In this document: piece after piece, positions 13,055 to 40,770 of the stretch | Layout: the number at the start of each line of letters is the position of its first letter | Position numbering within the stretch: the stretch's first letter is position 1 | Source: a virus | Reading direction: 5' to 3' (one strand) | Virus record (IMG/VR): IMGVR_UViG_3300048833_000194 | Span: 1-40,813 of that record | Length of the DNA: 40,813 bases | Made by a program: the position numbers and the translations under genes | The notes under the pieces: model-generated | What the model saw: the letters and a program-made list of their open reading frames with translations, nothing else | Told to the model about the DNA's origin: nothing | The model's database searches: none

Positions 13055-15270
13055 TCGCCCTCGCTCACTTCCAGCCGCGGCGCCAGGCTCAGCAGGGTGA
13101 AGGGCAGGGCCTGAAAGCTCTCCACCACCACCCGCGCTTCGCGATCATAACCGCCGGGGAACCCCACCAGCCGCTCGCCGGAGAACAGCGGCGGCGCCGC
13201 GTCCATGGCATGGGCGCTCGTGCGAAACTGCACGGTCTCATTCAGCCCGCCCGGCCGACGCACGCGGATGCCCAGCGTCTCCTGCAGGTCAAGGCCCAGC
13301 TTCACCACCCGCTTGATCTTCGTCAGCCCGCTTCCGCTCCCCACGTCGGCGGTCAGGCGCATGCTCTCCACCAGCGCGGCAAACGGCAGGCCCACATGCA
13401 CCTGCCGCGCCGGGCGCTCCAGCTCGATGGAGCCGCCGATCACGGTCAGGTCGGGGTGCGAGGCGCCATCGGTCACCACGGTCACCGTCTGCCCGTTCAG
13501 ATGCGCCAGCCCGCTGATCACGGTGGCGGGCGCCCCCTGATAGGTCAGGCTGCAATCGACGAAACAGCCCGATGCCTGCTCGTCCCCCTCCTGCCACAGG
13601 GGCAACAGGCGCTCGATCGTCTGCCGCTCCACCCCCGCGATCGTGCGCGTCACCGCCAGCCACAGCTGGTCCTGCGTGCCGTCGGGCGAAGGGATGCAGC
13701 AGATGCTGCGCACGGTGCCCGCCGTGTCGTGCAGGGAAAAGCCGCGCACGTTCTGGTCATCGCTCCACGTCAGGCACACAAGGCGGCCATCGCTGCGCAG
13801 GCCCCACACGCTGGCTTCCGGCTCCATCTGCGCTGCCAGCCGCGTCACGCGCGGCCGGGTGATATGCTCGGCTCGCACCGTTACGTCGGGCGCCTGATAG
13901 CGGTCGCGATCATAGGCATAGTCGGCCGCGCGCAGCTTCCGCCCACCCTTTGCAACGAACAGCGTGGCCGTGCCGATCGCCACCGGCCGCACCGGGTAGC
14001 TGCCGTGCGCCGACTGTCGGGGCGTGGCCAGATTGTTGAAGGCCACCGCTTGCGCCGGGTTCACCGGCTGCACGGCATATTCGGCCGCGCTGGTGCCCAC
14101 CAGCAGGGAACGGTCGTTCGCCAGCCAGCGCACCCGTTCCGGGCGCGGTAGTCGGCGGCGAATGCCAAGGTCGGCCTGCGCCAGGCCGCTGCCGTCGCGG
14201 GCAGAAAAATCCTCATAATCGCCCACCACGCTGGCAAACAGCTGGTTGCCCTTCGCCAGCCACAGCCGTTCGTCGCGGATGGCCACGGCATCGGCCCAGC
14301 CTTCCGCATTGCTGAAGGCTCCCATCGCCCACAGTTTGGAAGGGCTGGCCACCACCTCGTCTGGCAGGCGCTTGATCACGGTGGCCGAAACCTGCGTCGG
14401 GCTCAGATAGCCCGTGATGCGAACGATCCCGGCCCGGCTATAGAGGTATTTCCACAGCACGCCGCCGACATCATCGCCGTTCAGGTCCTTGCCCTCGCTC
14501 GTTCCGTCCCGCTCGCTGCCTTCGTCATGAATGGGTCGGTCGGTGCCGGTGCGCTTGCTGCTGCTGGCAGGCATGGCAATGGCCTCATACACCTTGCCGT
14601 CGCTTCGGCGCTTATCGCCGATCTCCATCTTCACCTGCGGTTCCCAGGCCGGAATGCTCGCGAAGTCCGCGCACTCGATCTCCAGCAGGCCGCCCGCATG
14701 GCCAGCTTTGAAGATCGGGCCGGAAGCGGTGATGGTCACCGCCCCCTCGCCGGCGCTCGCCTGCACCGTCAGGCCATCATTGTTGTTCTGGTCGTTGAAG
14801 GGGCCGTTCTTCAGTTCCAGCGCGGATAGCGCGAACGTCGTCGCGCTGGTGCGCACCAGCACCTGGTGCGGGTTGCGGCCATCCACCAGATACAGCTTCT
14901 CGGCCGATTGCTCACTTTGCAGCAGCGGCAGGTCGGCTGCCAGAAACGGCGTGGCGATCTGGTAGGGCACGCCCGGCGCGCTTTCCACCTGCGCGTCATT
15001 CGTGAAAAACCGGAAGTATCCCGGCCCGGCCTCGATCACATAGCCCTGCGTTTCGTTGTACACGAAGGGCAGCAGCTCCACCCCGGCAATCCCGCCCGCC
15101 TCTGCCACCCAGCGTGTGCCGCTGCGCTTCACCAGCGGCCCCTGCACGGTTACCACCATATTGCGGATCTTGCGGGCCGCCACGCCATAGGCAGCCAGAT
15201 CGGGGCGGCCTTCCATCCGCGCGGAAAGCTCGCCTCCGTTGAAGCTGGTCTGAAGCAGGCTCTGCACCAT
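13051..15270 (-). CDS. Tail tubular protein B (T7 gp12-like nozzle)
   Basis: A 739-residue protein, close to the usual length of gp12-type nozzle proteins. The N-terminus SLLQTSFNGGELSARMEGRP followed by KIRNMVV and VKRSGTRWV is the classic start of this family. The middle is a beta-propeller-like region. The protein forms the lower tail tube beneath the tail-tube A adaptor and holds the fibres. It follows the adaptor gene after a single base. Confidence 0.93.
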   Translation of the reverse strand: MVQSLLQTSFNGGELSARMEGRPDLAAYGVAARKIRNMVVTVQGPLVKRSGTRWVAEAGGIAGVELLPFVYNETQGYVIEAGPGYFRFFTNDAQVESAPGVPYQIATPFLAADLPLLQSEQSAEKLYLVDGRNPHQVLVRTSATTFALSALELKNGPFNDQNNNDGLTVQASAGEGAVTITASGPIFKAGHAGGLLEIECADFASIPAWEPQVKMEIGDKRRSDGKVYEAIAMPASSSKRTGTDRPIHDEGSERDGTSEGKDLNGDDVGGVLWKYLYSRAGIVRITGYLSPTQVSATVIKRLPDEVVASPSKLWAMGAFSNAEGWADAVAIRDERLWLAKGNQLFASVVGDYEDFSARDGSGLAQADLGIRRRLPRPERVRWLANDRSLLVGTSAAEYAVQPVNPAQAVAFNNLATPRQSAHGSYPVRPVAIGTATLFVAKGGRKLRAADYAYDRDRYQAPDVTVRAEHITRPRVTRLAAQMEPEASVWGLRSDGRLVCLTWSDDQNVRGFSLHDTAGTVRSICCIPSPDGTQDQLWLAVTRTIAGVERQTIERLLPLWQEGDEQASGCFVDCSLTYQGAPATVISGLAHLNGQTVTVVTDGASHPDLTVIGGSIELERPARQVHVGLPFAALVESMRLTADVGSGSGLTKIKRVVKLGLDLQETLGIRVRRPGGLNETVQFRTSAHAMDAAPPLFSGERLVGFPGGYDREARVVVESFQALPFTLLSLAPRLEVSEGE

Positions 15271-25404: not shown

Positions 25405-25596
25405 TCACTCTCCAGTCAGTTGTTTCGGCGCCGTGCTGCTGGCTTCCGCCCCGCCCGCGCCCAGAAGCTCGTTCGCGCCACCACCACGCCGCTTGCGCAG
25501 TCGGCGCATTTCGCCAGAGGCCTCCTCCACGCTGTCGCGCTGGGGCGTGGGCGCGGCCTTCGGCCCCTCTCCGCGCAGGCCAAGCAGGCCAGCCAT
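25405..25596 (-). CDS. Small basic protein after terminase
   Basis: A 63-residue protein with a central basic stretch (EMRRLRKRRGGGANELLG) and no other motif. The ATG overlaps the terminase stop by one base (TGATG). Small proteins of this kind follow the large terminase in related short-tailed phages, but no function is known. The basic patch could bind nucleic acid; this is only a guess. Confidence 0.6.
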   Translation of the reverse strand: MAGLLGLRGEGPKAAPTPQRDSVEEASGEMRRLRKRRGGGANELLGAGGAEASSTAPKQLTGE

Positions 25597-27074
25597 CAGG
25601 CGTCGTCTCCGAAGATGTCGTAATCCGCGCCAATCACCTGCATCCGCCCGCTCCCACGCTCCATGCCCAGTGCCGCCACCAGTCCACCCGTGCCGCCCAG
25701 CTCGAAATATTCGGCGGCTTCCGCGATATGGCTGAACGGGTTCTTTGCCGGTTTGGTATCGAAGCGACCGCTGGCGCCAAGCAACTGGATTTTTCGGAAA
25801 TGATATCCGCTGTTTAGTGCTTTTCTCAGGTTCTTCATGCTGGGGCACATCAGGAAGCTGGGCTGCCCCTCCACCATGCGGGTCAGCTTCGTCTTCAGGG
25901 CCTGCTGGCGTGCCAGCGGCTTGTTCGTCGGCGCCGGGCGGATGCGGAACTTCACCACGTCCTGCACGGCACGCATCCAGTGCGGATCCGCGCCCTCATC
26001 GTTGCCTCCATATTCGGCGGACGGATCGCAGACTCCCTCCACTTCGCGCACGTCATGGTGGCGGCAGCGCTCCTGCAGGCCCTCCAGCAACATTTCGCCA
26101 AAGCGCCTGGGCCCTGTGCCCGGCCCACTCACCACTTCAGCGATCAGCCGCGTGCGGCCGCCCGCCAGCTCCTGCCCGATCACTGCTGCCGGCGTGCCGC
26201 CTGCATCCATGGCCACCCTCAGCTTCACGCCCCGCACGGGTTCCAGCCGGGTGGCCGCCACATGCAGCGTGTCGTTGAACTCAGGGTGCACGGGCTTTCC
26301 ATCCCGGCTGTAGCCCCAGCGGTTGTGCACCAGGCGCCGCGCCCGCCAGTCGGGCATGGTCCGCATCATCGTCTCATAGTAGCGGGGCGGCAGGTTGTGG
26401 CGGTTCTCGGCGCCGGCATCCAGCCCGCCCGGCTGCACGAAAAAGCTGATCCCGGTCGCAGGCCGCACCGGGTCGCTCTCCGGGATCTCTCCGTCCACCA
26501 GCAGCTGGTGCAACCAGTGGTCCTGCTCGGGCGCGTTGAAGTCCAGCCAGCCCCCGAACCACGTCGGCCCGCCGTCCATCTTGGAAGGGTAGCGGCCCAT
26601 GCGGCTTTGCAGAAAGTCCACCACGCCATAGCCCATCAGATCGACTTCGTTGCCGTAGAAGCCGGTCCCTTCGTAACCGCGCAGCAGGTTTTCCACCGCG
26701 TCGTCACCCAGCCCCATGAAGTCCACCTGCAGGTGGATCGGCCCCCAGCGGTCGGAAAACTGCAGCCGGTGGGTCGCCGGCGGCCCACCCACCCACTCGC
26801 CGGCGTCTTTCGGAAAGATGTTGAACCAGCTGGGCAGGATCGTCCGCTGCAGGTTCGTGAACGTATCGCGGATCACCAGGTGCTTGTATCGGCGGATGCC
26901 GTCACGCGGGCTGGGCCGCTGCAGCTGGGCCGCCTTCACGATCTTCACCAGGCACCCGGTTGTTTTCCCCGATCCCACCGGCCCCATGATCGCGGATAGC
27001 GGGCTCCAGTCGTCGACGAAGCTGGCGCAGATCGGGCCGGGCGGATGCCAGTCGAGGTTCAGCACGTCGCTCAA
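25596..27074 (-). CDS. terL: Terminase large subunit
   Basis: About 492 residues. The ATPase has a Walker A motif (GPVGSGKTTG) near residue 31, and later RDTFTNLQRTILPSW and YEGTGFYGNEVDLMGY; the C-terminal part has AMDAGGTPAAVIGQ, which fits the nuclease domain. It is the motor that packs DNA and cuts concatemers. The start is uncertain: a TTG at 27074 forms TTGA with the stop of a doubtful ORF, as used elsewhere in this phage, and a GTG at 27065 is also possible. A reading from 27389 adds over 100 residues unlike any terminase and is rejected. Confidence 0.93.
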   Translation of the reverse strand: MSDVLNLDWHPPGPICASFVDDWSPLSAIMGPVGSGKTTGCLVKIVKAAQLQRPSPRDGIRRYKHLVIRDTFTNLQRTILPSWFNIFPKDAGEWVGGPPATHRLQFSDRWGPIHLQVDFMGLGDDAVENLLRGYEGTGFYGNEVDLMGYGVVDFLQSRMGRYPSKMDGGPTWFGGWLDFNAPEQDHWLHQLLVDGEIPESDPVRPATGISFFVQPGGLDAGAENRHNLPPRYYETMMRTMPDWRARRLVHNRWGYSRDGKPVHPEFNDTLHVAATRLEPVRGVKLRVAMDAGGTPAAVIGQELAGGRTRLIAEVVSGPGTGPRRFGEMLLEGLQERCRHHDVREVEGVCDPSAEYGGNDEGADPHWMRAVQDVVKFRIRPAPTNKPLARQQALKTKLTRMVEGQPSFLMCPSMKNLRKALNSGYHFRKIQLLGASGRFDTKPAKNPFSHIAEAAEYFELGGTGGLVAALGMERGSGRMQVIGADYDIFGDDA

Positions 27075-27406
27075 AGCACGGCCCCCGGCCCGGTCCTGAA
27101 ACCCCCTCGCGTGCGCCCGCGTGAGCCCCCCCGCCCCCCGAGATGGCAGCGGGGAAATTCGCGAAATTTTTTTTCCAGAGGCCACAGGATTTTTCCGCAC
27201 CCTGTGCCAATGGGCATACAGGCGCGGCGCCGCGCGCTGGGGGGGGTGGGGGGGGCTTCGCCCGATCGGCAGGCCGGAAGGCGCGGGCACCTGCTGTTCA
27301 AACAGGTGCCCACATGCGCGCAAGCCACTGATAACAAAAGCACAACGACCGTCGAGCGCGGCCCATGTGCCGCGAAACGTGACGGCCAAGCCCGGAAACC
27401 GCTCAT
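27071..27406 (-). CDS. Doubtful 111-residue ORF filling the gap between terminase genes
   Basis: The ATG overlaps the small-terminase stop as ATGA and the ORF ends exactly at the TTG start of the large terminase, which fits the coupling used throughout the phage. It would encode one hydrophobic stretch (STVVVLLLSVACAHVG) and Cys-, Pro- and Arg-rich remainder. However, its third codon positions are less GC-rich than in neighbouring genes, it has rare codons such as TTA and AGG, and it contains the G8TG8 run. It could equally be non-coding DNA with a packaging signal. Confidence 0.3.
   Translation of the reverse strand: MSGFRAWPSRFAAHGPRSTVVVLLLSVACAHVGTCLNSRCPRLPACRSGEAPPTPPSARRRACMPIGTGCGKILWPLEKKFREFPRCHLGGRGGSRGRTRGGFRTGPGAVL
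27239..27311. other. G8TG8 run and 9-bp hairpin in the terminase gap, packaging-site candidate
   Basis: Two runs of eight G separated by one T lie at 27239-27255. Just after, GGGCACCTG (27285-27293) and CAGGTGCCC (27303-27311) form a perfect 9-bp stem with a 9-base loop and no U-run, so it is not a terminator. Packaging (pac or cos) sites often lie in or next to the small terminase gene, so the region is a candidate. No cohesive end can be read from the sequence. Confidence 0.35.
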
Positions 27407-27906
27407 TCGCCCACCGCCTCGCCGTCCACGATCTGCCCCGCCAGGCGCTCCCAGGGCGGCAGATCGGCGCTGCCCGAGCCTTCCCACTGGCCCACCGTCA
27501 GTTGGATCGTCCGCGCGTCCACCTGCAGGCTCACCGGCTTCTTGCTCTCGAAGTAGGGCAGCGCCTCCACCGCGCACCGAACCTTCAGGGCCATCGCCTC
27601 GCCCTTTTTTACGTTCAGTTCGCGCGCCAGCTCCTCCACCGGCTTCGTGTAGGTTTCAGCCAGCGTCAGCAGCGGGTGCTGATGCTTTGCCAGCACCCAC
27701 CGGATCAGCTCCTCCGACCGCCGGTTGCGGCTGCCCTTCGGCCGCCCGCGCTTGCGCGCCGGCTCGCCGGCTGCGATCGGCCCGCCCGCCGCCACGCCGC
27801 CCGAGGCATCGCCCGCCAGCGGCAGCGCCGCCTGGACGCCGCCGCCCGGCACGTCCGCGCCGCGCGCTGCCTCCGCAATCCCTGCTGCTGCACCTTTCAA
27901 CGCCAT
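27403..27906 (-). CDS. terS: Terminase small subunit (putative)
   Basis: A 167-residue protein with an Ala/Gly-rich N-terminus, a basic AT-hook-like RKRGRPKGSRNRRSEEL near residue 53, and a helical region with LTLAETYTKPVEELARELNV. It lies directly before the large terminase, and size and position suit the DNA-recognition subunit that picks the packaging site. The family match is weak, so the call is partly from position. The late operon appears to begin here, with the GTTAC-box region directly upstream. Confidence 0.65.
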   Translation of the reverse strand: MALKGAAAGIAEAARGADVPGGGVQAALPLAGDASGGVAAGGPIAAGEPARKRGRPKGSRNRRSEELIRWVLAKHQHPLLTLAETYTKPVEELARELNVKKGEAMALKVRCAVEALPYFESKKPVSLQVDARTIQLTVGQWEGSGSADLPPWERLAGQIVDGEAVGE

Positions 27907-27980: not shown

Positions 27981-28252
27981 TTGTTACCGAAAAGTAACAT
28001 GGTAACAAAGCGAAGTAACAAGAAAACCTATATATATCTGCGACATAGATAGATTGTTACCGTGTTACCGGCTTGTCAGCCAATTCCTTCGCGTGTGCCC
28101 GCGCGCGCGTGCACATGTGGGCTGTGCGCGCGCGTGGCGCGCGTCCCGCGCGCGCGAGACGGCGGTAACGCGGTAACGATACCTCTAACGCACTGATAAT
28201 GCTGGATTATCCTGCTACCGAAAGGCGTTACCGTGTTACTTTCCGGTAACAA
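27981..28252. other. Array of eleven GTTAC boxes, candidate origin or late control region
   Basis: Eight GTTACC and three GTTACT boxes in both orientations lie at 27981, 27993, 28001, 28014, 28054, 28062, 28164, 28172, 28225, 28233 and 28245. Three pairs are direct repeats with an exact 8-base period (28054/28062, 28164/28172, 28225/28233). TTGTTACC (27981-27988) and GGTAACAA (28001-28008) are a perfect inverted repeat. An AT-rich stretch (about 28019-28056) and an alternating GC tract (about 28091-28157) lie between. This is like an iteron origin with an unwinding element, but the boxes could also be operators of the late promoter. The remaining 27907-28345 has no gene. Confidence 0.6.
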
Positions 28253-28345: not shown

Positions 28346-28609
28346 ATGGGCGCAGCCGGGTTGTTCGGGTGGATTTTGATGGCGCTGGCCTGCTTGCCAA
28401 CGCGCCACTGGTGGCCGGGGCTGATCGCCGCATTCGCCCTGGCGTTCTGGAATGTCAGGCATGCGCTCGCGGTTTACGCTGAGCTGGGCGTGGATGCGCA
28501 GCCGGCCGCGCTGGCCACTCGCGCTGCCATGCCCTTCCTATTGTTCGTTCTGTTGCGCGGCGCGCGCTGGCTGGCCCTGCGGTTCAAGGCGCGAGGAGAG
28601 GAGCGCTAG
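28346..28609 (+). CDS. Small membrane protein on the opposite strand, moron candidate
   Basis: An 87-residue protein with about three membrane segments (near residues 5-20, 24-42 and 58-74) and a basic C-terminus. The start at 28346 has a strong GGAAGGGG site upstream; earlier ATGs (28280, 28304) lack one. It is the only plus-strand gene between the attachment site and 33.8 kb, and its end overlaps the end of the convergent helicase gene by 4 bases. A lone, oppositely oriented membrane gene at a module border often is a moron that alters the lysogen, for example in superinfection exclusion, but nothing in the sequence proves this. Confidence 0.6.
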   Translation: MGAAGLFGWILMALACLPTRHWWPGLIAAFALAFWNVRHALAVYAELGVDAQPAALATRAAMPFLLFVLLRGARWLALRFKARGEER

Positions 28610-30537
28610 CCCTCCGGCCCCATATCAAGGCAGCGCTCCAGCGGGATCGCCACGCATTTCTGCTGCACGCCGCCGATGCGCACATTCTGGTCGCGCTCTG
28701 CCATCACCAGGCGCCCGAGGCTCTGCCCCCACACGCCGGCGGCGCCGCTCGATGCCTGCCAGTGCGTGCCCTGGAACAGCTTTGCCAGCCCCTGATGCGC
28801 CACGGGCACCATCACCCATCGCCTTTGCGTGCGGCTCTTCTTGTCGGTCCGGTCCATCACGCGCAGCCCCAGCACGGCCAGCGATCGCGCCGCCGTATCC
28901 GGCCGCTTCCCCGTCGCCAGATCTGGCTCGGCGTCCAGCTCGTCGGCCGCGCGGCCGATCCAGTGCGCCACCGTCTGCGGTCTCGATCCGCCCTCCAGCG
29001 TGGCGGCAGAGGTCAGCAGGTGCGCAAGGCAGCGATCCGTGTCCGTCATCGCCTCGCGCGTCTCGCCCAGCACGCCGGCGCCCATCAGCGCCTTCCAGGG
29101 CTCGATATCCTCGGGCTTCGGCGTGGTGCTGGATAGCAGCAGATCCGCGCCCGCCAGCAACACGCCAAACTGCGCGCTGCCCCGCCCGTCATGCCCGGCC
29201 TCGCGCAGCATCTCGCGATAGGCGCGCAGCGTCTCGCCAAAGCGCGGCCAGCCGTCCAGCAGCCGGCGACGCAGCGTCCCGCCCACCTTTTCCATCCAGC
29301 CGGCATCCAGCACGGGCTCCCGCGCCTCTTTCGGGAAGGGGCCGAGGTCCAGCACAGCCAGGCGGCTGCGATCCTGCCCCTGCAGCGGCGGTATAAGGAT
29401 GGACGACAGCAGGAAGCACGCGCGCGCGGTGAAGGCGTGGGCGGTATGGTCGCTGCCGCCCCGCACCACGTTGCCGCCGCTCGATGCCTGCCGCGCCAGC
29501 TTCACCAGCGCCTTCAGCTTGCGGTTATCTTCCTCGGCCTCGGCCTCGTCGATCGCCACCGGTAGGGTCTGATGCCCCACGCTCTGCCGCACGCCGGCCT
29601 CGCTGGCATCACTGGTGGAAAGCAGGCCCTCGCCCATCACGCCTTTGATCAGCGCATGCAGCGTCGATTTCCCCGTCCCCTTGTCCCCAGTCAGCCAGAC
29701 GATGGGGCGCCAGTCGAGCGCGCCGCCCAGGAAGGCGCAGGCCATCCACCCCAGCAGCAGGTAAGGGTCTGTCTCCGGTCGCTGCCAGTTCCAGCTGCGG
29801 ATAAGGCCCAGCAGCTCGTCGATCGCGTCGGTGTCTGCCGGCCCGTCCAGCGGTCGCGGCACGGGTGGCGCCGATGGATAGACATAGCGGCCGTGCATGC
29901 CGGTCTTCTGCCACTGGCCTTCAATCAGCACTTCATCGCCCACATGCACAATCAGCCCGCCGGCCGCATCCAGCCATACGCCGCGATCGCGCCGCTTGTC
30001 CTGGGCGTTCCACACGCCGGCGGCAGCGCAGGCGCACATCAGCACCTCGCCGGCCTCTTCCGGCCGCCATCCCGTCAGATTGCCTTCCTTGTCATAGCGC
30101 GGCCATGTCTCGTGCAGAAAACCCGTCTTCGGCGCGAACAGCGCCAGCAGATCCTTGTTGCCATGGTCGCGCGCCTTCAGGCTGCGCAACTGGCCTACGG
30201 TGTCCAGGTAGAAGAACGCGCCATCATAGGTGCCCAGCGGCGAAACAGGGCAGTCAGGCGGCAGCTGCCAGCCGCCGAAATCGCGCACCTTGCGCGGCGA
30301 TCGCCGCTCCTCGCCGCCGGCGCTCGCGCTCGATCCGCCGGATTTCCCGCCGCCCTTGCCCTTCGGCCGCCGCTTGGCGCGGTCCGTCTTAGACGGAAAG
30401 GCCACAACGTTGGCGTCAGCGCCGGCGCCATCCCCGGCAGGGGTGGCGGCAGGCGCACCCGCCAGCGCCTCTCTGGCGGCGTCAGCGGTTGAAGGGGTTT
30501 CGCCCGCCTCTGGCGGGATCTCGCCGTCCTCGCTCAT
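28606..30537 (-). CDS. Replicative helicase-like P-loop ATPase
   Basis: A 643-residue protein. Residues about 1-90 are low-complexity and basic. A middle domain precedes the ATPase, which has Walker A GDKGTGKST (284-292) and Walker B LPVAIDEAE (325-333). The overall form fits phage superfamily-3-type or related helicases that act with a primase at the fork. It overlaps the primase gene by ATGA, and together they form the only recognisable replication module. No polymerase is encoded, so the host replisome would be recruited. The exact helicase family needs a profile search. Confidence 0.75.
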   Translation of the reverse strand: MSEDGEIPPEAGETPSTADAAREALAGAPAATPAGDGAGADANVVAFPSKTDRAKRRPKGKGGGKSGGSSASAGGEERRSPRKVRDFGGWQLPPDCPVSPLGTYDGAFFYLDTVGQLRSLKARDHGNKDLLALFAPKTGFLHETWPRYDKEGNLTGWRPEEAGEVLMCACAAAGVWNAQDKRRDRGVWLDAAGGLIVHVGDEVLIEGQWQKTGMHGRYVYPSAPPVPRPLDGPADTDAIDELLGLIRSWNWQRPETDPYLLLGWMACAFLGGALDWRPIVWLTGDKGTGKSTLHALIKGVMGEGLLSTSDASEAGVRQSVGHQTLPVAIDEAEAEEDNRKLKALVKLARQASSGGNVVRGGSDHTAHAFTARACFLLSSILIPPLQGQDRSRLAVLDLGPFPKEAREPVLDAGWMEKVGGTLRRRLLDGWPRFGETLRAYREMLREAGHDGRGSAQFGVLLAGADLLLSSTTPKPEDIEPWKALMGAGVLGETREAMTDTDRCLAHLLTSAATLEGGSRPQTVAHWIGRAADELDAEPDLATGKRPDTAARSLAVLGLRVMDRTDKKSRTQRRWVMVPVAHQGLAKLFQGTHWQASSGAAGVWGQSLGRLVMAERDQNVRIGGVQQKCVAIPLERCLDMGPEG

Positions 30538-31679
30538 GCCAGCTCACCCAGCGCAACCAGCTCCTGCACCCATTCATTGAAGTCCTTCAGCCGGGCGGGC
30601 GGCCGGGCCACACGCACAGCCCGGCCTGCCGCCTCGTGCGCCGCCACGGCGCGGGCAAAGCCGGCGATCGCCGGATGCGGCCGCCCGTCCGGCAGGGTTG
30701 CAGGGTCGTTCTGCCCCACCAGCACCACGTCGCGGCACTGCGGCGGCAGCTCCACGGCCGCCATGTTGGAAAGGCTGGCCGCCGCGATCACGCGGGCCGA
30801 AGGCAGCAGCCGCGCTGCGGAAAGCCCATCTTCGTTGCCTTCCGCGATATAGACGGGCACGCCGGCGGGCAGCTCGCGAAGCGTCTGCCGATGCTCGCCC
30901 TTCCAAAGCGGGATATGGGCGCCGCGATAGTCGCCCAGCACCAGCTTTGCCCGGCTCAGCGGCGCTTTCCTAACGCCGGCGCTGTCTGCCTGCAGGAACG
31001 TCCGGTGTGTGGCCACCTGCCGGCCATCCAGCCGAACCATGCTCGCCAGCATGGCCGGCCAGCCGCTGCCCCCGGAATTGGCGGCCTCTGTCGGGCCGCC
31101 ATCGGGATGGCGCAACGCCTGGCCGGCGCGCAGGCAGTTGGGCCGCCGGCCCAGCTGCAGGAGCCCGATGCCTCGGCCCGCCAGATAGCGGTCCACAACA
31201 TCGCCCGGCTCCAGGGGCCGTGCCTTCAGCCACAGGGCTTGCGCATGGGCGGTTCTGCGTTCGCTATCCATCGCCTCAACTTGCGCTTTTTTCGCCCGCA
31301 GCTGCGCGGCACGTTCTGCAGCGGCCGGGTCCGGCGTCGCCGCCCCCTCCGCTCCCATTCCCAGCCAGTCTTTCGCCCAGCGGATGGCGGCGCCCTTGTC
31401 GCCGCCGGTTCGCACATAGGCGATCAGGTCCAGCAGATCGCCGCCGGTGTTCGCGGAAAAATGCGCCCAAACTCCCTTGCGCACACCGTTCATGCGCACG
31501 GACAGGCTGTCGCCCAGCCCGCCCCTCGATGTCGGCGCGTCCAGAAACTCCGGCCCATGTTGCCGCCCCGCCGGCAACAGCAGCGGCACCAAGCTGTCGA
31601 TGCGGTCCGTCAGCAGCTGCACCAGCTCGCCAATGTCGACCAGGTGCGGGCCGGGTGCGCCGCGCTTGCGGCCGCTCAA
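30534..31679 (-). CDS. Toprim DNA primase-like protein
   Basis: About 381 residues. Residues about 65-90 (VWAHFSANTGGDLLDLIAYV) have the form of the fold around a CHC2 zinc finger, but no Cys/His zinc ligands are present. Residues about 275-381 are a Toprim domain with VYIAEGNEDGLSA (catalytic-type Glu280), VLVGQND in place of the usual DxD, and KDFNEWV at the end. Such proteins make RNA primers. The likely start is a TTG at 31679 in a TTGA overlap with the preceding stop; ORF readings from 31937 run through two other genes. Confidence 0.75.
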   Translation of the reverse strand: MSGRKRGAPGPHLVDIGELVQLLTDRIDSLVPLLLPAGRQHGPEFLDAPTSRGGLGDSLSVRMNGVRKGVWAHFSANTGGDLLDLIAYVRTGGDKGAAIRWAKDWLGMGAEGAATPDPAAAERAAQLRAKKAQVEAMDSERRTAHAQALWLKARPLEPGDVVDRYLAGRGIGLLQLGRRPNCLRAGQALRHPDGGPTEAANSGGSGWPAMLASMVRLDGRQVATHRTFLQADSAGVRKAPLSRAKLVLGDYRGAHIPLWKGEHRQTLRELPAGVPVYIAEGNEDGLSAARLLPSARVIAAASLSNMAAVELPPQCRDVVLVGQNDPATLPDGRPHPAIAGFARAVAAHEAAGRAVRVARPPARLKDFNEWVQELVALGELA

Positions 31680-31894
31680 TGCAACAGCGGTGCGCCCGCC
31701 TCCCCGGCCGCATCGCATGCAGCTATGGCGGGGCTTTGCAGGGCCGCCACCAGCGCGGCCCGCGCAACGTCCGGCAGCTGCACGCCCAGCGTGGGCAGGC
31801 CGGCCTTCCGAATAATCAGCACGGGCTCGCCATGGCTTTCGCCCAGGCTCAGCCCGTCTGCCAACACATAGTGCAACGGCGGCGCCTCGCTCAC
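31676..31894 (-). CDS. Small protein of unknown function
   Basis: A 72-residue protein with a beta-hairpin-like middle (EPVLIIRKAGLPTLGVQL) and an Ala-rich C-terminal helix. It is coupled by ATGA to the previous gene and by TTGA to the primase, so it is part of the replication operon. No family is recognised. Confidence 0.6.
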   Translation of the reverse strand: MSEAPPLHYVLADGLSLGESHGEPVLIIRKAGLPTLGVQLPDVARAALVAALQSPAIAACDAAGEAGAPLLH

Positions 31895-32340
31895 GGCTGT
31901 TCCCCTTCAATGTCAGCGCCCCAGTCTTCGCGTTCAAACTGTTCCAGATCCTGCCCGCCTATCGCCGGCCCGCTATCGGGCCACTCATCCTCATCGTCGG
32001 GGCCGCCCAGGTCGCGTCGCAGCTGCCAGCTGGGCGGATAGGTCAACGGCTCTCGCGGCCAGTTCACTGCCAGCGCGTCGTTGAACAGATCGGTCGGAAT
32101 GTCCGCCTCCTTGCGTGTGGCCACCAGCACAGCGCGCGCCAGAAGGCGGGCCGCCGGCGGCGGCCAGTCCTTGCCGCCCGTGGCGACGGCAGCATCCACG
32201 GCCAGGCGCAGATCGCGAAGATCCCGCATGCTGGCCGCCGCCGCGCGCGGCGGAAAAAAGGCGAGGACCGGCGCCACCAGGTCGTTGAAGGCCTGCGGGG
32301 CGCGGTAGGTGCGCTGTCGCTGGATAGCCGCCCGCCTCAT
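31891..32340 (-). CDS. Replication-operon protein of unknown function
   Basis: A 149-residue protein with a basic N-terminus (MRRAAIQRQRTYRAP), a helical middle and a very acidic C-terminus (from about residue 118, many Asp and Glu). The ATG at 32340 gives ATGA with the HTH gene stop. Basic start and acidic tail are seen in some DNA-binding or polymerase-contact proteins, but no family can be named. Confidence 0.6.
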   Translation of the reverse strand: MRRAAIQRQRTYRAPQAFNDLVAPVLAFFPPRAAAASMRDLRDLRLAVDAAVATGGKDWPPPAARLLARAVLVATRKEADIPTDLFNDALAVNWPREPLTYPPSWQLRRDLGGPDDEDEWPDSGPAIGGQDLEQFEREDWGADIEGEQP

Positions 32341-32816
32341 GCAGCCGCGTTCCGTTTTTGCCCAGCCCGGCGCCGCGTCTTCCACTGTGGATCGGCGGTT
32401 GCCTTTCCGGTCGCCAAAATCGTCACCACCCGAGAGTTCGTGGTGCGCTCAACCCGAATGAACCGCCGGCTTTCCAGTGCCTCTATCAATCCGCCGACGG
32501 ATAGCTGGTCTGTGCCAAGCCGTTCGGCGATTTCCCGGTTGGTCGGGCAATAGGCGCCCATGTCGGCCGTCTGTTCCAGCACAGCCAGCAACCGGCGCTG
32601 CAGATGCGCGCGGGAAAGCGGGTCTCTTGCTGGCGAGGCGTTCTTGCGCCCCACCGGCTCTTGGCCCGCCCAGGCCACGCTTTTGGCTATGGCGTGCAGA
32701 TCGGCCATCAGTTGGCGGGCCTCGTCCACAGTCAGCTCCACCATCTGCTGGCGCAACTGCATCTGCACACGCCCCCGGTTCAAGGCCGCGATCAGCCTGA
32801 TATCGGCCAGGCTCAT
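32337..32816 (-). CDS. Winged-helix-like DNA-binding protein
   Basis: A 159-residue protein. Residues about 85-140, with CPTNREIAERLGTDQLSVGG followed by IEALESRRFIRVER and a strand pair, have the layout of a winged helix: helix-turn-helix, then a two-strand wing. The first 60 residues are helical. It lies upstream of the primase and helicase, so it could be a replication initiator that binds the GTTAC boxes, or a regulator. The start at 32816 forms ATGA with the previous stop. Confidence 0.65.
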   Translation of the reverse strand: MSLADIRLIAALNRGRVQMQLRQQMVELTVDEARQLMADLHAIAKSVAWAGQEPVGRKNASPARDPLSRAHLQRRLLAVLEQTADMGAYCPTNREIAERLGTDQLSVGGLIEALESRRFIRVERTTNSRVVTILATGKATADPQWKTRRRAGQKRNAAA

Positions 32817-33124
32817 TTTTGATTGCCCTGCGGGCGCCGGCCATCCGGCCGGCTTGCTTCCTCGCATTGGCTCGGGCGCGCGGTCGCGCTTGCGGCCTGC
32901 GGCCGCGCTGCGCCTCTGGATCGGATGGGCAGGTCGCCGGGCGTTTCCGCCAGCGCGCAGGCAGCCTCGATCTGCGGCAACAACGCACGCCATTGCTCAA
33001 CGCCCAGCGTCAGCATCACCATAGCCGCGCGGTCCTCGTGCATCAGCGTCACGCCGAAACTGCCGCCCGCCATGCGCGAAACCACGGCGACAGTGCCGCC
33101 CTGTTCGGCGAAATCAGCGCCCAT
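32813..33124 (-). CDS. Small early protein of unknown function
   Basis: A 103-residue protein. Residues 1-60 look folded, with alternating strands (GTVAVVSRM, FGVTLMHED, AAMVMLTLG) and a helix; the rest is basic and low in complexity. The ATG at 33124 overlaps the previous gene by 11 bases. No family is recognised. Confidence 0.55.
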   Translation of the reverse strand: MGADFAEQGGTVAVVSRMAGGSFGVTLMHEDRAAMVMLTLGVEQWRALLPQIEAACALAETPGDLPIRSRGAARPQAASATARPSQCEEASRPDGRRPQGNQK

Positions 33125-33464
33125 GGCCCGCCCCCCTGCGGGAAGCGAACAGATCTCCGGCAGGCTTCGCACGCGCCTCGGGCGGCGCGGCCGGCGCCGA
33201 ACCGGCCAGCCGCAGCTTCTCCGCCTCCCACTCTGCCCAGCGCTGCAGCAGTTCCACGGGGTTGCGGCCGTGCGCGGAAAGTGCGCCCGCCAGCTCCAGC
33301 AACAGCCGCTCGGCGGCGCCGATTGTCAGGCCATAGGAAAACTCCAGCTTGCCGGCGCGCCCGGCCTCGGCCTGAATGGGTTGCTCGGCGCCGTCGACGG
33401 CCCGCACGCGCAGCCGCCCGAAGAAGAAATCCCACTCGGGCTGCGAATAGTCCGGGGCGCTCAT
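33114..33464 (-). CDS. Early protein of unknown function
   Basis: A 116-residue protein with Trp/Phe-rich start (YSQPEWDFFFGRLRVRAV), a strand with GKLEFSYGLTIG and a helical middle ending in LLQRWAEWEAEKLR, then an Ala/Pro tail. It is the second gene of the leftward early operon, coupled by ATGA to the Cro-like gene. No family is recognised. Confidence 0.6.
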   Translation of the reverse strand: MSAPDYSQPEWDFFFGRLRVRAVDGAEQPIQAEAGRAGKLEFSYGLTIGAAERLLLELAGALSAHGRNPVELLQRWAEWEAEKLRLAGSAPAAPPEARAKPAGDLFASRRGAGHGR

Positions 33465-33781
33465 GCAGCGGTCCGTCCGCGCGTTAACGCCGTTTCACCA
33501 TTGCACCCGTCTTTCGGCATGCCAGTATTGAGGACTGGGGGGTTGCTATGCGTAGGCAGATCATAGAAATCATTGGCGGTCACCGCACCGTTCGTCAGCG
33601 CAATAAGCTTCGCCATGAAGTCAGCGCTTGGGATGTTCGATCCGCTTTCCCAACTGTGCCACGTCTGCCGGGTGCACCCAACTTCGGCGGCGGCGTCGTT
33701 AACGCTCTTTTCCTGCGCCATGCGCCAGGTTCGGAGCTTGTTTTGTGCAGGATGTGCCATATCTGGGCTGGTGTAAGACAT
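33461..33781 (-). CDS. Cro-like HTH regulator, first gene of the leftward operon
   Basis: A 106-residue protein with a helix-turn-helix at about residues 26-47 (VNDAAAEVGCTRQTWHSWES), as in Cro/C1-type regulators. It begins the early leftward operon and is divergent from the repressor gene. The ATG at 33781 is preferred, since GGTAAGAG lies just before it; a TTG at 33799 and an ATG at 33760 are alternatives. A perfect operator (33773-33789) covers this start codon, so bound repressor would block the gene. Which of the two HTH proteins keeps lysogeny is inferred from neighbours. Confidence 0.75.
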   Translation of the reverse strand: MSYTSPDMAHPAQNKLRTWRMAQEKSVNDAAAEVGCTRQTWHSWESGSNIPSADFMAKLIALTNGAVTANDFYDLPTHSNPPVLNTGMPKDGCNGETALTRGRTAA

Positions 33782-33789
33782 TCTCTTAC
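33773..33789. promoter_or_regulatory. Operator 1, perfect palindrome at the Cro-like gene start
   Basis: GTAAGACATTCTCTTAC is a GTAAGA / TCTTAC inverted repeat with a 5-base spacer. It covers the ATG and part of the ribosome site of the Cro-like gene. Matching sites occur at 34629 and 34662. A single half-site GTAAGA at 33807-33812 lies between the two divergent genes. Confidence 0.75.
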
Positions 33790-33827
33790 CGACGCGCAAG
33801 GCCCAAGTAAGACACTATGAGATAGAC

Positions 33828-34247
33828 ATGTCAGGAACCGTCTTACATTTTCCGGATATGTCGAGATTGCCCAACAGGTTGCGCGAATTGCGAGAGGCGC
33901 TCGGCATGTCCCAGCAGGAACTGGCGGACGAGGTCGGCTGCTCCAAGATGCAGATCTCCACGCTGGAGCGTGGCCGGCCAAGCCTCGATATAGCCTGGAT
34001 GCAGCGCCTCGCCCCTATCCTCCGGGTAGAGCCGGGCGACCTGCTGAACCCCGGCGACAACAGCAAGGCTGCGCGGGATGCGGAAGAGCTGCGGTTGATC
34101 CAGCTCGCCCGCCGCATGCCGCAATCCGTCCGGGAAAAGTTCCTGGGCGTGGGGGAAGCGCTCGCGGGCGACTACCCCGCCGAAGAGCCTGCCGCCACCC
34201 ATTCCGAACAGGCGGACTACGCCGCCGGTGAGCGCAAAACAGCCTGA
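33828..34247 (+). CDS. Phage repressor, Xre-family HTH
   Basis: A 139-residue protein with a classical Xre helix-turn-helix (about residues 18-66): LREALGMSQQELADEVGC, then SKMQISTLERGRPSLD. The C-terminus is helical and has no LexA/CI-type protease residues that I can see, so SOS cleavage is not evident. It faces away from the early leftward operon and is followed by a membrane protein gene, so it is likely the lysogeny repressor. GAG lies about 7 bases before the ATG at 33828; an in-frame ATG at 33858 is an alternative. A degenerate operator overlaps its first codons. Confidence 0.82.
   Translation: MSGTVLHFPDMSRLPNRLRELREALGMSQQELADEVGCSKMQISTLERGRPSLDIAWMQRLAPILRVEPGDLLNPGDNSKAARDAEELRLIQLARRMPQSVREKFLGVGEALAGDYPAEEPAATHSEQADYAAGERKTA
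33830..33846. promoter_or_regulatory. Degenerate operator at the repressor start
   Basis: GTCAGGAACCGTCTTAC keeps the perfect right half TCTTAC and four of six bases of the left half GTAAGA, with the same 5-base spacer as the perfect sites. It lies within the first codons of the repressor gene, so it could serve in autoregulation. The imperfect left half makes it less certain. Confidence 0.4.
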
Positions 34248-35761: not shown

Positions 35762-36015
35762 AGGCCGGGCTCCTGCGACGCGCAGAGGCAGCGCAGCGGC
35801 TGGCGGTCAGCGATCGCACGCTGGCGCGCCTCATCGCACGCGGGGAACTGGCCGTGCACCGCATCGGCAACCAGGTGCGGCTGGAACCGGATGAACTGGA
35901 ACGCTTCATCCGCAACGCGCGCGAACTCGCGCCCGAACCCCGTGCGCGCCGGCTGCAGCGCCAGCGCGCCTCGATGCCGGAAGGCGTCCCCGATTTTGAA
36001 AAGATCCGCGCATGA
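35758..36015 (+). CDS. xis: Excisionase-type HTH protein
   Basis: An 85-residue protein with a MerR-like winged helix: RRAEAAQRLAVSDRTLARLI, then ARGELAVHRIGNQVRLEPDE and a final helix. This is the HTH_17 excisionase-family pattern. It sits directly before the integrase gene, overlapping it as ATGA, so it likely bends attachment-site DNA and steers the integrase to excision. It has a GTG start at 35758. The basic tail after residue 58 may add DNA contacts. Confidence 0.8.
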   Translation: MKAGLLRRAEAAQRLAVSDRTLARLIARGELAVHRIGNQVRLEPDELERFIRNARELAPEPRARRLQRQRASMPEGVPDFEKIRA

Positions 36016-37199
36016 GCCTCTACCGCCGCAAGGTCACCAGCATCGATCCGGCAACGGGCAAGCGCAGCGTGCAGGCGGGCCGCGTCTGGTGGTTTGATTT
36101 CACCGTGAACGGCAAGCGCATCAGGGGCAGCAGCGGCACGGACATAAAGGCGGAAGCCCGGCAGGTGGAAGCCAAGGCCCTGCAGGATGCAAAGGCCGCC
36201 TCTGCCATGCCCAACCGCTGGCGCCTGCGCCACATGTTCGGCGCCTATTGGGAAGGCCGCGCCCGCCACGCCAAGAATGCAGATGATCTGAAGGCGCAGA
36301 TGGCCGCCATCTCCGATGGGCTGGGGCCTAACCTCTATGTGATGGATCTCACCGCCGAAATGCTGGTGGCCTATCTCACCCGCCGCCGCACCGGCATTCG
36401 CCTGGTGTGGGAAAAGGTTCCGGCCGCCCGGCGCAATGGCACCAGGGCAGAGCGCCGCCAGGTCGAACGCCCATATCTCCGGTCGAACGCCACGCTGAAC
36501 CGCGAGCTGGCCGCCCTGCGCGCCGCCATGAACTTCGCCGCCGATGCCCATGGCCAGCCGGTGCCCCGCATCAACTGGAAGAAGATCGTTCTGAAGGAAG
36601 CTGCGCCCCGCGTGCGCCACCTCCGGCAAGACGAGTTTCAACGGCTTCTGGAATGCGCGGCGGACGATGAAATGGCGCTGATGATCGTGCTGGCGATCGG
36701 CAGCGCGCTGCGCCGCCAGAACCTGCGGGATCTGGATTGGGCGCAGGTCGATCTCATCACTGGCCGCATTGCCGACATCACCACCAAGGGCGGCAAGAAC
36801 TTTCAGGTGCGGCTCAGCGGCGACCCGCTCACCCGCCTGCAGCGCCACGCCGCCGCCGTGCAGAAGGAAACGGGCAAGCTCGAAGGCAGGGTTTTCACCC
36901 GGCCCAACTGGCGCCGCCGCTGGGATGCCACCCGCAATGCCGCCGGCATCGCCAACTATCGCTGGCACGATCACCGCCACACCTTCGGCGCCTGGATGCG
37001 CCTGGCCGGCGTGGACATCGCCGATATCCGCGACGCGATGAACCACAGCAGCATCGCGATGACCACGCGCTACATGCACATAACCCCGGAAGAGGCGACC
37101 ACCGCCTGGGACGTGATGGGCAAGCGCCTCACCCCCGAAGCACCCCAAAAAGCAAAAGGCGCGGCCGCACCAAAGCCCGCCACCCGTGAAGGAGAATAG
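36012..37199 (+). CDS. int: Tyrosine-recombinase integrase
   Basis: A 395-residue protein. Residues 1-55 are an arm-binding-type domain, about 60-180 the core-binding domain and about 200-365 the catalytic domain. The active-site set is visible: Arg234 (SALRRQN), Lys259 (TTKGG), His319 and Arg322 (WHDHRHTFG), His345 (MNHSS) and Tyr354 (TRYMH). It would recombine attP with the tRNA-Thr gene. It lies about 3.5 kb inside attR, with many genes between, while many phages have int next to attP. Confidence 0.95.
   Translation: MSLYRRKVTSIDPATGKRSVQAGRVWWFDFTVNGKRIRGSSGTDIKAEARQVEAKALQDAKAASAMPNRWRLRHMFGAYWEGRARHAKNADDLKAQMAAISDGLGPNLYVMDLTAEMLVAYLTRRRTGIRLVWEKVPAARRNGTRAERRQVERPYLRSNATLNRELAALRAAMNFAADAHGQPVPRINWKKIVLKEAAPRVRHLRQDEFQRLLECAADDEMALMIVLAIGSALRRQNLRDLDWAQVDLITGRIADITTKGGKNFQVRLSGDPLTRLQRHAAAVQKETGKLEGRVFTRPNWRRRWDATRNAAGIANYRWHDHRHTFGAWMRLAGVDIADIRDAMNHSSIAMTTRYMHITPEEATTAWDVMGKRLTPEAPQKAKGAAAPKPATREGE

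Positions 37200-40686: not shown

Positions 40687-40770
<84 letters not shown>

Follow-up and report, generated by a model that had tools for sequence, protein, structure and literature searches.

A mirrored GTTAC box array behind a helicase gene is the probable replication origin of a prophage

The array of short repeated boxes at positions 27983 to 28250 of the viral record IMGVR_UViG_3300048833_000194 is very probably the replication origin of a prophage, and the product of the adjacent helicase gene is the protein most likely to bind the boxes, via its C-terminal domain. Sequence comparison leads us to class the array as a putative theta-type phage origin, a variant of the initiator-helicase kind known from SaPI/PICI, P4, and Sfi21. 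The whole stretch of DNA analyzed (40,813 nucleotides, here called the window) has a 50-bp direct repeat in tRNA-Thr at 77 to 126 and 40687 to 40736, the two attachment sites. Since this repeat lies at both ends, the window holds a whole prophage of ∼40.6 kb, which also encodes a tyrosine integrase (36012 to 37199).

Eight GTTACC and three GTTACT boxes were found within 27983 to 28250 when motifs were counted across the window, exactly the number given in a first-pass annotation of this DNA. Counting GTTACC over the whole genome, a check proposed with that annotation, gave 19 occurrences compared to 3.4 expected from shuffled sequences (10 in the largest shuffle). All three GTTACT boxes of the window fall inside the array, and a motif scan found no second box cluster anywhere in the 40,813 nucleotides. 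The 8-bp spacing described earlier was correct, but the number of tandem pairs with this spacing is four rather than three (∼27993/28001, 28056/28064, ∼28164/28172, and 28227/28235). The symmetry had been understated as one perfect inverted pair: 10 of the 11 boxes mirror each other exactly, as five pairs, about a dyad axis at 28116.5 (27983+/28245-, 27993-/28235+, 28001-/28227+, 28056+/28172-, and 28064+/28164-). The mirror partner of the eleventh box (28014) is degenerate, reading GCTACC at 28214. When 11 boxes were placed at random 200,000 times, four mirrored pairs arose 8 times and five mirrored pairs never arose. The mirrored boxes thereby make up two iteron sets that flank a central region (Table 1).

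Table 1. Features of the box array and of its neighborhood in the window
Feature	Positions	Strand	Remarks
Large terminase subunit (TerL)	25596..27389	-	Neighbor, left of the array
Small terminase subunit (TerS)	27403..27906	-	Identified from its location and family context; adjacent to the array on the left; unlikely to belong to the origin
Left outer box cluster	27983..28019		GTTACC+ 27983, GTTACT- 27993, GTTACC- 28001, GTTACT- 28014; mirrored by 28227-28250
AT-rich spacer, candidate melting element	28020..28055		72% AT versus 34% AT in the window
Left inner pair GTTACCGTGTTACC	28056..28069	+	8-bp spacing
Core between the inner pairs	28070..28163		94 bp; alternating purine-pyrimidine tract around CACATGTG
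Right inner pair GTTACCGCGTTACC	28164..28177	-	8-bp spacing
Right spacer	28178..28226		53% AT; holds the degenerate box
Right outer box cluster	28227..28250		GTTACC+ 28227, GTTACT+ 28235, GTTACC- 28245
Small hydrophobic ORF	28346..28609	+	Neighbor, between the array and the helicase gene
D5/Cch-type initiator helicase (predicted), 643 aa	28606..30537	-	Proposed box reader via C-terminal winged-helix-like domain (∼494-643)
TOPRIM (DnaG-like) primase	30534..31937	-	DUF7146 and Toprim_3; 4-bp overlap with the helicase gene

The AT-rich and alternating GC tracts noted in the first-pass annotation are both real. Purine-pyrimidine alternation in the core reached 0.72 versus a window mean of 0.53, which ranked second of 867 segments. 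The core itself is 24% AT, and the AT-rich part of the array is the spacer at 28020 to 28055. With its TA, CA, and CG steps, the alternating core could be Z-prone and easy to distort. The axis of the array lies 490 bp past the stop codon of the helicase gene, on the 3′ side of that gene, with one small open reading frame intervening, for which protein family searches found no match. No match to a sigma-70-type promoter was found inside the array; the only match in the gap is at 28373 to 28400 on the minus strand. Searched by nucleotide against phage records, the array region returned no match.

The layout of the array is conserved among related phages, while the word spelled by its boxes drifts. 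Seven viral contigs with a related terS gene were compared. In those with a visible array the layout was kept, whereas the word could differ: GTTACC (L001, L005, and L007), GTTAC with mostly A as the next base (L002), TGCTACG (L003), GGTTCCA (L004), and GGTTGAC (L006). A search with the helicase as a single protein found no relatives among viral contigs, and an alignment-based profile search with the same protein recovered 80 loci. A word-blind finder of paired inverted boxes, with a threshold of 9 or more boxes, detected arrays in 58 of these 80 loci versus 1 of 80 dinucleotide shuffles. It found no array with at least 9 boxes in the remaining 22 relatives, yet at least one of these, L002/L137, has one. 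The words among the helicase relatives were GTTAC, GCTAC, GCAAC, CTAAC, CCAAC, GAGAC, GAAAC, GCGAC, CTTAC, GGAAC, ACAAC, GTAAC, AGAAC, TAGAC, GTTCC, GTTCT, and TTGAC, and longer forms in related phages include GCTACG, GCAACG, GAAACC, and GGTTCC. Loss of the boxes in related phages had been named in advance as grounds for abandoning the earlier reading; the architecture is conserved and the word itself is not.

Every located array in the helicase clade sits 3′ of the helicase gene. In most relatives, inner pairs or triples lie ∼30 to 60 bp from the axis and outer boxes lie ∼82 to 135 bp from it. Across 40 aligned arrays, the AT excess over the locus peaked in the spacers at 60 to 80 bp (+0.19, +0.31), and purine-pyrimidine alternation peaked at the axis (0.71 to 0.82 versus about 0.5). 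Tested singly, cores were significantly alternating in 36 of 42 related arrays of the window's clade. An alternating core is not general, being found in 30% of all GTTAC arrays. A similar array with the word GGTTCT was seen in an unannotated human fecal phage scaffold (L010, MT835534, 9300 to 9557), where it lies between the helicase and terS genes.

The association with helicase genes was also recovered when gene information was withheld. We scanned for the pattern GTTACN3GTTAC-N70-100-GTAACN3GTAAC and obtained more than 119 matches in viral contigs and more than 118 in bacterial and archaeal genomes sampled at one per species, the latter including Comamonas, Streptococcus, Clostridia, Bacteroidota, Ignavibacteria, and others. 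The pattern read backwards, a clean control, gave 8 matches. A control with direct instead of inverted pairs gave 109 matches and is not a clean negative, because a genuine array also fulfills it with its outer plus inner pairs. Neighbors of 300 amino acids or more were then assessed for 186 nonredundant arrays among the matches listed, and these large neighbors faced the array with their 3′ end in 109 cases versus 27 with their 5′ end. In two Pfam scans of 3′-facing genes among the matches listed, DUF5906 was assigned to 28 of 54 and 24 of 53 genes, VapE-like to 15 and 13, DUF927 to 10 and 7, HTH_56 (the Cch HTH) to 10 and 7, and D5_N to 9 and 4; Pox_D5 was also assigned, and DUF927 occurs with HTH_56. 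DUF5906, VapE-like, DUF927 together with HTH_56, D5_N, and Pox_D5 are replication-helicase families. All of them are missing from the families listed for 5′-facing neighbors. With profiles of our own, most recognized helicase genes were found to end 0 to 250 bp from the array.

Arrays of this type coincide with a known origin in Streptococcus thermophilus phages. The contig L037 is identical to Streptococcus phage Sfi19, and its array lies within the annotated rep_origin (AF077306, 5231 to 5531). At the same place, the Sfi21 record reads "origin of replication, 302 bp non-coding region, phage inhibitory sequence." A passage of PMC6356513, citing Foley 1998, describes the Sfi21-type element as a replication origin activated by infection. 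Like the window, the Sfi19/Sfi21 origin (PER) has GTTAC boxes, with inner tandem pairs (8-bp spacing) in inverted orientation on either side of a core and with outer boxes flanking them, and it lies directly 3′ of a DUF5906/Pox_D5 primase-helicase gene. Unlike the window, it has an AT-rich core, an outer-box dyad that is only approximate, and no terS gene nearby. Sfi19 contains two copies of the origin array (L037, 8987 to 9232 and 10713 to 10957) ∼1.7 kb apart, and Sfi11, SFi18, and CHPC919 have two matching places each.

The identity of the array type with the annotated Sfi19/Sfi21 origin, together with the placement of context-blind arrays at the 3′ end of initiator-helicase genes, supports the earlier suggestion of an iteron origin. 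The suggestion that the site is a late promoter control region was not supported: most relatives have the array behind the helicase gene in the replication module, not before the late operon, and the array itself is devoid of sigma-70-type promoter matches.

Other initiator-helicase systems resemble the window in part. The SaPI/PICI origin lies immediately 3′ of the initiator helicase gene, and two iteron sets flank a putative melting region (PMC6092414). The window shares the location and the two sets. However, published descriptions of PICI origins place the AT-rich region at the center, whereas the core of the window alternates and its AT-rich parts are spacers; with a core of 24% AT, the array would be a variant and not a PICI origin. 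The window is also a full-size prophage, unlike SaPI/PICI, whose organization is called common to no other known replicon (PMC6092414). In P4, annotated type 1 repeats (TGTTCACC) form crr and also occur in ori. The repeats of crr are arranged as tandem and inverted pairs and end 46 bp beyond the 3′ end of the helicase gene alpha. The P4 repeat resembles the GTTACC box in sequence, arrangement, and proximity to a helicase gene, but P4 carries two repeats of 120 bp in place of a single dyad, its second ori is distant, and its alpha protein is a primase-helicase fusion. The C terminus of Cch2 binds repeats downstream of its own gene (PMC7581432). Among solved full-length folds, that of SCCmec Cch is closest to the window helicase, but Cch2 has only three AAGTG-type direct repeats and no dyad array. 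SV40 and papillomavirus, an analogy drawn in PMC7581432, also place an initiator helicase on inverted origin sites; their site words are unrelated, their origin-binding domain is N terminal, and the likeness is one of analogy only.

The window helicase had no Pfam match and matched PHROG DNA primase entries. Its AlphaFold2 model (mean pLDDT, 87.9) gave best Foldseek matches to poxvirus E5/D5, African swine fever virus PrimPol, NrS-1, and the SaPI5 primase-helicase. VIA-align placed SCCmec Cch (5dgk) first (Z = 16.0 over 429 residues, model positions 93 to 640) and the SaPI5 primase-helicase second (Z = 15.7), with MCM helicases close behind. On the strength of the model, the gene at 28606 to 30537 is assigned a D5/Cch/Rep-type helicase fold. 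The isolated C terminus (model pLDDT, 93) had no significant match with Foldseek alone. Weak matches that stood above the rest were to TcpK (two entries, Z = 4.9) and to residues 447 to 558 of SaPIbov1 Rep (Z = 4.7). TcpK is an oriT-binding protein. This weak resemblance of the modeled C terminus to SaPIbov1 Rep and TcpK is consistent with its predicted role as the reader of the boxes.

The proximity of the array to terS raises the possibility of a packaging site (cos or pac), in which TerS would bind the boxes and the large subunit would cut the core. The array lies directly before terS here and in most loci of the window's clade (60 to 210 bp), while its distance from the helicase gene ranges from 54 to 3,452 bp. 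In the L014-type clade (L014, L017, L018, L021, L046, L047, and near-identical contigs), an array of 10 GTTAC boxes in perfect symmetry lies ∼207 bp before terS and has come apart from the helicase, since the only recognized helicase gene is ∼9 kb off and points away. The arrangements in both clades speak against the origin reading. In addition, a cohesive-end cut could fall within the GC-rich core at the center. Because the array stays near terS in two clades, the covariation of the box word was compared across proteins. Among 41 phages, box-word similarity correlated with the helicase C terminus (r = 0.39), the whole helicase (r = 0.37), TerL (r = 0.32), and TerS (r = 0.30). With TerS controlled for, the helicase C terminus kept a partial correlation of 0.29; TerS kept 0.125 when the helicase C terminus was controlled for. 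The nearest neighbor had the same word in 22 of 41 phages by helicase, 20 by TerL, and 14 by TerS. This covariation is modest and confounded by ancestry, but it appears to point to the helicase as the box reader. TerS, the natural packaging reader, predicts the word no better than TerL and less well than the helicase. Column-level mutual information named no specificity residues and was too confounded by ancestry to do so. The covariation comparison, the context-blind survey, and P4 led us to rank a packaging site lower, and we regard it as improbable. In the survey, arrays lie behind helicase genes and Terminase_2 was assigned to 1 of 56 scanned 5′-side neighbors among the matches listed; in P4, whose record has no terminase gene listed, similar repeats lie at the 3′ end of alpha. 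The Sfi19/Sfi21 copy is moreover an annotated origin, and as packaging is directional, an exactly symmetric array would not be expected of it.

A helicase-read origin might also tether the late module, by way of a promoter or of a packaging start near the origin. Such a dual role would accommodate both the origin evidence and the closeness to terS conserved in two clades, but many relatives have no terS nearby, and we consider it unlikely, if less so than packaging by itself. It is very improbable that a transcription regulator uses the boxes as operators to control the divergent terS (late) and 28346-28609 genes. The array does lie between divergent genes, the prophage encodes HTH proteins at 32337 to 34247, and the repeated half-sites of the array could be used by a host or phage regulator. 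However, there is no GTTAC cluster near the regulator genes, the array lacks a promoter match, relatives with other gene orders have the array after the helicase gene and not in a divergent gap, and 11 boxes in a 268-bp dyad would far exceed typical operators. The same HTH proteins, which the first-pass annotation had put forward as candidate binders, are unlikely to fill that role, given that no box cluster lies nearby and that the word tracks the helicase C terminus. The symmetry of the array also led us to consider a protelomerase site (tos), which was set aside; the prophage has a tyrosine integrase and the tRNA-Thr att repeat.

For the origin reading, we infer the following course of initiation. 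The helicase encoded at 28606 to 30537 would bind the GTTACC and GTTACT boxes through its C-terminal DNA-binding domain. Owing to the mirrored boxes, two hexamers would be loaded in a head-to-head arrangement at the two inner pairs with 8-bp spacing, while the outer boxes would supply further binding sites. The duplex may open at the AT-rich spacers, at the alternating core, or at both, and two forks would then depart bidirectionally, with primers made by the TOPRIM primase encoded next to the helicase.

Phages of many bacterial groups carry this layout with a lineage-specific repeat word, and we did not find this breadth, or the drift of the box word on a fixed scaffold, described in the open literature. 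We tentatively propose, with somewhat less than even confidence, that a single, as yet undescribed class of origin is common to phages of many host groups; in it, a dyad of 5- to 6-bp boxes paired at 8 bp around an alternating core would seat two self-loading hexamers, the word drifting freely with the C-terminal reader of the helicase. If so, sequence could suffice to assign origins and compatibility groups in thousands of uncultured phages. The more than 20 box words on one scaffold would be a natural data set for specificity change in the DNA-reading domain of an initiator. Should the origin reading of the window hold, the origins of many temperate phages could be located from sequence alone, as a dyad of 8-bp-paired boxes beside an initiator helicase gene. 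Bacteria carrying cloned copies of the Sfi21 element are reportedly protected against phages (PMC6356513); predicted origins are therefore candidate phage decoys for laboratory or dairy strains.

The GTTAC dyad pattern was also matched by L376, L335, and other contigs of archaeal assemblies (a Lokiarchaeota MAG and a Nitrosopumilus MAG). Bdellovibrio phage phi1422 carries a fully mirrored array of 12 GTTACC boxes around an AT-rich core (L449, 4008 to 4312; ∼14007 to 14311 of the record). It lies directly behind a primase-helicase gene, no feature is annotated over it, and by its sequence it is likely the origin of that phage.
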